NCBI RefSeq assembly: GCF_017814435.1
Contig: NZ_JAGJCB010000005.1
Span: 124,001-188,000 of the forward strand
DNA: 64,000 nucleotides
Source of the DNA: Mariniflexile gromovii
GTDB lineage: Bacteria > Bacteroidota > Bacteroidia > Flavobacteriales > Flavobacteriaceae
Direction: 5' to 3'
In this document: positions 62,581-64,000 of the stretch, in pieces
Position numbering within the stretch: the first letter of the stretch is position 1
How the letters are laid out: each line of letters starts with the position of its first letter
Notes under the pieces: generated by a model
The model's database searches: none
What the model was told of the DNA's origin: nothing
Seen by the model: only the letters and a program-made list of their open reading frames with translations
Position numbers and translations under genes: made by a program

Positions 62581-63359
62581 ACATTTTAGATAAAATTGTA
62601 GCCGATAAACGCATTGAAGTCGATTTAAGAAAATCGCTTATTCCTGTTAAACAATTGGAGCAATCGGTTTTGTTTGAAAGACAAACCATTTCATTAGCAA
62701 CCAAATTAAAAAATAGCCAAACAGGCATCATTGCAGAACATAAACGAAGATCCCCTTCTAAATCGGTCATAAATCAAAACTTAAATGTGTTTGATGTGGC
62801 AAAAGGCTATGAAGATGCTGGCGTTTGCGGGATGTCCGTTTTAACCGACGGTAAATATTTTGGTGGTTCTTTAGACGATTTGTTAACCGCTCGAGCCAGT
62901 TGCAACCTACCACTTTTACGTAAAGAATTCATCATAGACGAATACCAGTTATTAGAAGCCAAAGCCTATGGTGCCGACGTTATTTTACTTATTGCGGCTA
63001 TTTTGAGCAAAGATGAAATTAAGCAGTTTTCAGAATTTGCAAAAAGCTTAAATTTGGATGTGTTGTTGGAAGTTCATAACGAAGAAGAATTGCATAAATC
63101 CATCATGCCAAGTTTAGATATGTTGGGTGTAAATAACCGAAATTTGAAAACCTTCGACGTTAGTTTAGAAACCAGTAAACGTTTAAGTACACTGATACCA
63201 AATGATTTTGTTAAAGTATCCGAAAGTGGCATTAGTAACGTGGAGGCCATTAAAGAATTGCAACCTTATGGATACAAAGGTTTTTTAATTGGTGAAAACT
63301 TCATGAAGACAGATAATGCTGGTGAAAGTGCTAAAGAATTTATTAAAGGCCTCCTCTAA
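62577..63359 (+). CDS. trpC: Indole-3-glycerol-phosphate synthase
   Basis: 260 residues of TIM-barrel type: ILDKIVADKRIEVDLRK at the start, IIAEHKRRSPSKSVI with the catalytic Glu and Lys, VLTDGKYFGGSLDDL, LLRKEFIIDEYQLLEA, LLEVHNEEEL, LGVNNRNLKTF and SESGISN. It closes the indole ring. TrpF is a separate gene here, not fused to trpC. Confidence 0.96.
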   Translation: MNILDKIVADKRIEVDLRKSLIPVKQLEQSVLFERQTISLATKLKNSQTGIIAEHKRRSPSKSVINQNLNVFDVAKGYEDAGVCGMSVLTDGKYFGGSLDDLLTARASCNLPLLRKEFIIDEYQLLEAKAYGADVILLIAAILSKDEIKQFSEFAKSLNLDVLLEVHNEEELHKSIMPSLDMLGVNNRNLKTFDVSLETSKRLSTLIPNDFVKVSESGISNVEAIKELQPYGYKGFLIGENFMKTDNAGESAKEFIKGLL

Positions 63360-63412
63360 CTCCTCCGAAGGAGGAGAACACTCAAATGGCAAACAGTACG
63401 AATAAAAAATAA

Positions 63413-64000
63413 ATGAACAAAGATAAACGAAATACTCCGCAATCCATTCCCTCCCCTTTGGGGAGGGTTAGGGTGGGGCTTCTTAAAGTCTGCGGTATGA
63501 AATACCAAGAAAACATAGAACAAGTTGCAGCTTTGCAACCTGACTATCTTGGATTTATATTTTATGAAAAATCTGCACGACATTTTGATTCAAAAAACAT
63601 TCCTGAAATACCAAAATCCATAAAAAAAACAGGTGTGTTTGTTAATGAGGAATTGGACATTGTTATAGACAAAATAAAATCTCATAATTTACAAGCAGTT
63701 CAACTTCATGGTGAAGAATCACCGGAATATTGTAACGCTATAAAATGTCATTTCGAACAGCGTGAGAAATCACATAATGAGAATCTGAAACAAGTTCAGA
63801 TTGACAAAAAATTAAACTCTGTCATATCGAACGCAGTCGAGATAATCAAAGTATTTTCCATAAAAGACGAATTCAATTTTGATGTATTAAAACCTTATGA
63901 AAACGTGTGCAATTATTTTCTTTTTGACACCAAAGGAAAATTACCCGGAGGCAACGGTTATACATTCGATTGGAATGTACTAAACAACTACCCATCAACC
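63413..64000 (+). CDS. trpF: Phosphoribosylanthranilate isomerase with in-frame repeat insertions, cut by window edge
   Basis: 196 open codons from the ATG at 63413 to the right edge. The catalytic Cys sits in KVCGMKY at about residue 25-31. YLGFIFYEKSARHF, GVFVNEEL, VQLHGEESPEYC, VFSIKDEF, FLFDTKG and GGNGYTFDW are family motifs. The family start (MKLK-ICGM-like) lacks an ATG of its own at the usual place; the coding starts upstream and passes through a GGGGAGGG-type repeat, adding about 22 residues (SPLGRVRVGL included). An ATG at 63497 would lose the catalytic Cys. A second insertion of about 90-100 bases at 63747-63847 adds about 30 residues (CHFEQREKSHNENLKQVQI and on). Both keep the frame. 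Confidence 0.88.
   Translation, partial: MNKDKRNTPQSIPSPLGRVRVGLLKVCGMKYQENIEQVAALQPDYLGFIFYEKSARHFDSKNIPEIPKSIKKTGVFVNEELDIVIDKIKSHNLQAVQLHGEESPEYCNAIKCHFEQREKSHNENLKQVQIDKKLNSVISNAVEIIKVFSIKDEFNFDVLKPYENVCNYFLFDTKGKLPGGNGYTFDWNVLNNYPST
63449..63482. repeat. CCCTCCCC...GGGGAGGG palindromic repeat inside the 5' part of trpF
   Basis: CCCTCCCC-TTT-GGGGAGGG then TTAGGGTGGGGCTT. It resembles the repeat before trpD. It is translated as SPLGRVRVGL in the trpF frame. Confidence 0.75.
63747..63847. repeat. Composite palindromic repeat inserted in trpF
   Basis: Three repeat units in a row: GTCATTTCGAACAGCGTG (to GAGAAATC, 63747-63771), AATCTGAA-ACAAG-TTCAGATT (63782-63802), and GTCATATCGAACGCAGTCGA (to TAATC, 63821-63847). 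The first and third are related. All are of the kind normally found between genes. Confidence 0.75.

Follow-up and report, generated by a model that had tools for sequence, protein, structure and literature searches.

The best-known in-frame palindromic insertions are those of Rickettsia, whose palindromic elements were reportedly described by Ogata in 2000 and 2002. As described in PMC10969869, these elements are short palindromes that lie in frame in unrelated genes and give rise to extra peptides. According to PMC3733652, Bacteroidetes is one of the phyla with CGTC repeats; most copies lie between genes, and some are intragenic and translated, many of these N-terminal. The same paper also describes recB of two Xanthomonas species, where different REPs occupy roughly the same position, and ties GTAG repeats to RAYT transposases. 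The repeats that we describe here in trpF resemble the Rickettsia elements in that they insert in frame into an intact gene. This likeness is one of mode of action, set beside the published description. They differ from the Rickettsia elements in belonging to another phylum and in that one loop of one enzyme has been hit repeatedly, by several repeat families, across a bacterial family. Unlike the CGTC and GTAG repeats as PMC3733652 describes them, the TrpF loop displays family-wide turnover at a single site, in Flavobacteriaceae. In-frame palindromic insertion is therefore a known class of mechanism, and its extent here is new, with several repeat families repeatedly occupying one loop across a bacterial family. 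In the open-licence literature, searched by titles and abstract openings, we found neither translated repeats in flavobacterial TrpF nor palindrome-flanked DUF559 domains in LeuRS or RecG. An initial annotation of this DNA had called translated mobile-type repeats inside a core metabolic gene unusual; in-frame repeat insertion as such was already described from Rickettsia and other bacteria.

The window, a stretch of 64,000 nucleotides of the Mariniflexile gromovii genome, ends within trpF, the gene for phosphoribosylanthranilate isomerase (63413..64000, + strand). As the initial annotation noted, the frame from the ATG at 63413 is still open at the window edge (64000). On the whole contig the gene (L003:1114-1881) encodes 255 aa and ends in a normal TAG stop beyond 64000, with trpB next. 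Its product scores above the cut-off of the Pfam PRAI profile, in a match split into two stretches, and carries the active-site motifs, and a modelled relative provides the TIM barrel fold; active-site Cys and Asp motifs were found, using loose patterns, in 101/101 TrpF. Compared with a congener (G001), the trpF core has a dN of 0.088 and a dS of 0.793 and is under purifying selection. A pseudogene with a stop just beyond 64000, or an assembly error, had been named as outcomes that would overturn the finding; both are ruled out by the complete ORF and by the inserts that congeners carry.

Two in-frame repeat insertions had been proposed for this gene. Both are there, and the phenomenon is wider than claimed, with the loop serving as a landing site across the family. 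The larger insertion, in the alpha4-beta5 loop, is a composite of three palindromic units that is read in frame (63746..63844, + strand; CHFEQREKSHNENLKQVQIDKKLNSVISNAVEI). It spans 99 nt and 33 in-frame codons between SPEYC and VFSI, matching the composite of about 100 bases first reported there. Unit 1 (63746..63774; TGTCATTTCGAACAGCGTGAGAAATCACA), named type C here, has three separate genomic matches (query positions 10-38/42), unit 2 (63775..63808; TAATGAGAATCTGAAACAAGTTCAGATTGACAAA) is the right half of type A with 25 matches, 11 of them in a 117-bp MITE, and unit 3 (63820..63844; TGTCATATCGAACGCAGTCGAGATA), likewise named type C here, has one separate match (query positions 82-106). The three units thus match separate genomic copies, and parts of the 108-nt loop query give at least 29 other matches in the genome (25 for the middle unit, 3 for the first, 1 for the third), a lower bound since 40 of 78 candidates were scored. 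Two of these 29 copies fall at contig ends. Among the remaining 27, 26 are not contained whole in any ORF of 100 aa or more; the sole exception, L021, lies in a frame of 505 aa that has no Pfam match. With many copies, mostly intergenic and palindromic, the repeats belong to the REP/MITE type of dispersed repeats. The 505-aa frame (L021:648-2162) apparently holds two in-frame repeat units. Within the 64-kb window, no other copies of the N-terminal or loop repeat were found.

A repeat of ~117 bp with terminal inverted repeats GTCTGAAAAGT..ACTTTTCAGAC occurs at eleven loci of this genome (L025-L033, L037, L038) and includes the CTGAAACAAGTTCAG core. This element is MITE-like in its terminal inverted repeats and carries the same core palindrome as trpF; the MITE likeness of the trpF inserts lies in that shared palindrome core. 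A RAYT was considered as mobiliser and rejected: the genome has two Y1_Tnp matches, one with three stops and one in a 525-aa frame, and their 3.3-kb loci contain no core repeat motif. A Y1 gene flanked by the same repeat, as in a RAYT-mobilised REP (REPtron), is absent from these two matches, so that the TrpF repeats, unlike GTAG REPs, show no RAYT link at the two Y1 loci of this genome.

The second insertion lies at the 5' end of trpF, ahead of the catalytic KVCGM, where the initial annotation had placed it. The first codons of the gene hold a GGGGAGGG palindrome and form the right palindromic module (63447..63481; TTCCCTCCCCTTTGGGGAGGGTTAGGGTGGGGCTT), which reads in protein as ..PSPLGRVRVGL. 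A left module (63350..63385; CCTCCTCTAACTCCTCCGAAGGAGGAG...) includes the trpC stop codon (63357-63359), and the ATG of the 23-residue N-terminal extension (63413..63481, + strand; MNKDKRNTPQSIPSPLGRVRVGL) sits between both modules. Both modules are dispersed in genomes, and the middle part of the junction gave two weak partial matches, nothing more. In this genome the N-terminal repeat has five other matches (60-nt query), one of which overlaps the start of hemW (L053). The net gain at the N-terminus is ~22 residues; the loop of this TrpF, measured from VQLHG to FSI, is 55 aa long against a commonest length of 28, a net gain of 27, so the estimate of about 50 added residues in all was correct. 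The N-terminal repeat also contains a GTG and a TTG, either of which could replace the ATG as start, so that translation of this repeat is likely, but not proven, in this genome. Among 101 TrpF rows, 17 have an extension of 21-27 aa ahead of the LKVCGM core, and a simple palindrome pattern matched in nine of these. In six of the 17 the interval from the upstream ATG to the core contains no further ATG, GTG or TTG, and the extension should therefore be translated there; the palindrome was matched in two of the six.

Comparison with the trpF of relatives, which had been proposed as a check, bears out the loop insertion and reveals that its identity changes. All of the 6/6 genus genomes searched have a PRAI match in two stretches and a loop insert, with families differing among them: the composite in this genome (G000), type A (RHAELVSESHHENLKQVQID) in G004, type B (RHYEERNDAVIPSKETDCFDFEKKSRND and variants) in G001, G002 and G003, and a shortened type B in G005. 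Together with the intact gene and the purifying selection on its core, these inserts support, as a reading of sequence, the proposal that translated mobile-type repeats lie in a working core gene. In a family sample, TrpF was found in 138/149 genomes, and among the matches listed, the match was split near the loop site in at least 15 (in G008 in a second copy). In a phylum sample, 105/118 genomes matched, and 0/94 matched genomes outside the family were split at the loop.

We assembled 222 loops (212 distinct DNAs), 142 of them from 143 TrpF loci (L191 gave none) and 80 from named records. Insert frequencies are inflated among the 80 named loci because these are the best 80 of 583 matches to an insert-bearing query. 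From VQLHG to FSI, the commonest loop length is 28 aa (53/222) and the longest is 85 aa. At the same 80 named loci, TrpC and the N-terminal 226 aa of TrpB contain no insertion of five or more columns; TrpC, insert-free there, is also a TIM barrel. A second recurrent TrpF repeat, VLSFLRRQES (TTGTCATTCCTGCG.AGGCAGGAATC-like), takes the place of residues near the C-terminal part in five genomes (L229/L342, L344, L256, L266, L269), with one residue varying in L269 and no evident change in length.

To identify the loop DNAs, we compared them with a library of 76 repeat copies from outside trpF loops, with 12 copies inside trpF excluded, against a null of 4,440 dinucleotide shuffles. The library includes trp-spacer copies. 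Because the inserts of G000, G001 and G004 served as queries in assembling it, these rows are not independent of it; it is poor in type C, and L232, L244, L250, L258 and L265 are type C-like by eye but uncalled. Scores above all 4,440 shuffles were reached by 44/222 loops, and scores above the 99.9th percentile by 49/222 (42/212 and 46/212 of the distinct DNAs, respectively). By loop length, the 99.9% threshold was passed by 29/36 loops of >45 aa, 17/42 of 36-45 aa and 3/64 of 31-35 aa, and by 0/80 of 30 aa or less. As element queries, type A matches 25/32 genomes and type B 12/32. Judged by these matches, the TrpF alpha4-beta5 loop is an insertion hotspot in the family, and the repeat family found there differs between species.

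The operon itself carries further copies. Nineteen of 72 loops of at least 35 aa have a similar repeat copy in their own locus, in a set where three genomes were entered twice and one counts twice among the 19. Judged by offset, most of these copies lie at gene junctions, namely before trpC, before trpF, after trpF and after trpB, a placement shown for L307, L316, L319 and L322. Since the trp gene junctions carry the same repeats, the loop behaves like one more intergenic spacer. Translated repeats are also found in ValRS (L359) and LeuRS (L364, L366), which were reached via the N-terminal repeat. Across 12 genomes, the LeuRS stretch from NWIG to FTTRPDT is short and without a repeat match in two (G120, G090) and holds short repeats in five (G000, G002, G005, G138, G054), each scoring above its own 50 shuffles.

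To follow the inserts through time, we mapped repeat presence on a tree of TrpC, the TrpF core and TrpB (101 rows, 98 counted after three duplicates were dropped). Presence changes at least 28 times by equal-weight parsimony (28 for either root state). Over 300 label shuffles the mean was 32.4 changes (range 25-39), with 24/300 at 28 or fewer, and repeat presence is thus near-random on the tree, slightly more clustered than random, with some inheritance mixed in. Two close sisters with a support of 100 differ in repeat family, L352 carrying type A by the library and L265 being type C-like by eye only and uncalled by the library. Inserts of one type are also less diverged than their surroundings. 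In hand-picked sets, all 44 alignable pairs (of 45) among 10 type B rows and all 48 alignable pairs (of 55) among 11 type A rows are less diverged than the 4-fold sites of trpC+trpB, with means of 19% vs 64% and 23% vs 62%, respectively; these values come from local alignments, which favour conserved stretches, and the low divergence could partly reflect constraint on the palindrome. Between G001 and G138, which belong to different genera, dS is 0.03 in the loop and 1.0 in the core, and the G001 insert resembles the G138 insert more closely than it does the inserts of its congeners G003 and G002. For seven same-type pairs, one of them (L258-L264) type C-like by eye only, the dN/dS of the insert is 0.75, 0.94, 0.43, 0.79, 0.52, 1.1 and 4.9 (5-19 changes each) and that of the core 0.07-0.17. 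Same-type TrpF inserts are under weak protein-level constraint, and their divergence and dN/dS would fit nearly neutral, recently arrived DNA. Types A and B offer only two stop-free frames out of six, which accounts for the recurrence of the same reading of a repeat.

Modelling of the TIM barrel had been proposed as a way to see whether both inserts fall in loops. We modelled a relative that has both inserts, L194 of an uncultured Flaviramulus, using an 80-row alignment (mean pLDDT 87.8), and its closest PDB matches are the PRAI enzymes 1pii, 1v5x and 1nsj. The model places the loop insert between alpha4 and beta5 and gives the N-terminal extension low confidence (65 and 51). The repeat peptide covers approximately residues 112-134, with the start of helix H104-121 on one side and strand E136-143 on the other. 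Its first half is predicted with good confidence to prolong helix alpha4 (90 for block 111-120), and its second half is modelled poorly (61 for block 121-130), so that, in this model, the repeat peptide is not simply disordered. In TIM barrels the catalytic strand ends lie on the face opposite the alpha4-beta5 loop side, and we infer that the enzyme tolerates the insert because of this placement.

We explain these observations, at a probability of roughly 0.87, by the recurrent landing of small palindromic mobile repeats in the TrpF loop and at the 5' end of the gene, with the peptide as a passenger. Several unrelated REP/MITE-like palindromic families, common in trp spacers and elsewhere and, we infer, mobile, would keep landing in the alpha4-beta5 loop and at the trpF 5' end. 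Insertions that preserve the frame without a stop would survive. Later insertions, deletions or conversions would overwrite the loop, so that sister species could differ in the repeat they carry there. The peptide that a repeat encodes would then be carried along and would not be a functional part.

An unlikely competitor, though the best placed of three, holds that the repeats are retained as RNA or DNA elements, be it an mRNA hairpin, a gyrase site or trpC-trpF translational coupling, with the peptide as the price. Several loop inserts do fold into hairpins, and the left module, as noted above, contains the trpC stop codon. The trpC-trpF junction (63350-63481, 132 nt) is moreover 99% identical between G000 and G001, and 60-nt windows of the adjoining trpC and trpF core are 78 to 97% identical, with gapped windows set aside. 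However, the 80 of 222 loops of 30 aa or less match no repeat, and because filled loops hold unrelated repeats, no one structure has been kept. Much less probable still is that the inserts are functional protein parts, providing an interface, regulation or dimer control of TrpF: the frame is preserved, loops of 40-85 aa exist in several lineages and part of the insert is modelled as a helix, but protein-level constraint is weak within the same insert type, the second half of the insert has low model confidence and sequences differ between types. A single ancient loop insertion that diverged in each lineage, with no recurrent invasion, is the least credible account, for although parsimony permits losses as well as gains and type B is common to G001, G002, G003 and G005, it sits poorly with the close sisters that differ in family, with insert silent sites less diverged than the core, and with a G001 insert closest to that of another genus.

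The recurrent landing of palindromic repeats may involve a nuclease. The LeuRS stretch from NWIG to FTTRPDT, which belongs to the editing region, holds an in-frame DUF559 domain in five of the 12 genomes (G001, G003, G004, G130 and G118, the last 46% identical). Palindromes lie on both sides of it in the DNA of G003 and G004, the G001 and G130 peptides are similar, and no bordering palindromes were seen in G118. At the loci themselves, translated border palindromes were observed in L403, L404, L405 and L406 (in DNA, L403 and L404), the exception being L407. The RecG of G001 and G130 also contains a DUF559 domain, detected on L415 by Pfam and NCBIfam (Pfam also on the LeuRS L403). It is bordered by a CTCC..GGAG-type palindrome and by CCTCCCTTCTGGGGAGGTTGGTGGGGCTT in G001 (a similar sequence in G130), and CCTCCCTTCTGGGGAGGTTGGTGGGGCTT resembles the right module of trpF; both RecG loci (L415, L416) have translated palindromes at the borders, seen in the DNA of both. 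Unlike the TrpF inserts, the embedded domains have dN/dS values of 0.09-0.18 in LeuRS (host 0.10-0.14) and 0.11 in RecG (host 0.06). In carrying a nuclease-like domain in frame, the LeuRS and RecG proteins of relatives recall homing endonuclease elements, such as inteins and free-standing nucleases. Unlike in inteins, Pfam finds no splicing (Hint) domain in L403 or L415, and as far as can be told from the sequence, DUF559 stays in the host protein.

Some stand-alone DUF559 genes are palindrome-flanked as well. One in this genome (L392:1378-2007; G000, C7) and another in G001 (L395:1367-2006) each lie between 38-nt inverted repeats that are 97% complementary, with GC-rich palindromes in the former. 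At L395, a similar hsdR-like 5' end is apparently present on both sides of the gene. In G004, three DUF559 genes are flanked on either side by CTCCTCC..GGAGGAG palindromes or ones like them, and just upstream of a G004 DUF559 gene lies a stretch that shares 97% identity over 36 nt with the left module of trpF. Counting against a role for DUF559, the stand-alone genes L386, L391 and L394 showed no GC-rich palindromic flanks in a scan limited to hairpin loops of 3-8 nt, a scan that overlooked the flanks of L392 and L395, which were evident by other comparison. G002 and G005, two of eight genomes, likewise count against it, having no DUF559 match. DUF559 is a candidate mobiliser of the palindromic repeats. 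In a fuller and more speculative version, which we consider possible but doubtful, the palindromes would be the ends and the internally deleted derivatives of a new DUF559 (Vsr-like) nuclease element living in frame in core genes. The nuclease would cut LeuRS, RecG, TrpF and other genes at permissive loops, and in the course of repair the full element or a short palindrome would be copied in, so that proteins would be rewritten without splicing; the trpF 5' element, with its left end, ATG spacer and right end, would be a DUF559 element minus the nuclease.

Flavobacteriaceae have been widely sequenced and are mainly free-living. The repeats may explain odd flavobacterial peptides such as HAELVSAS..NLKQVQ and RHYEERND.., and they point to DUF559 as a candidate mobilising nuclease. 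For the family, parallel insertions in one structurally understood enzyme would constitute a natural experiment on how mobile DNA becomes tolerated protein, how rapid its turnover is and in which loops it is accepted.
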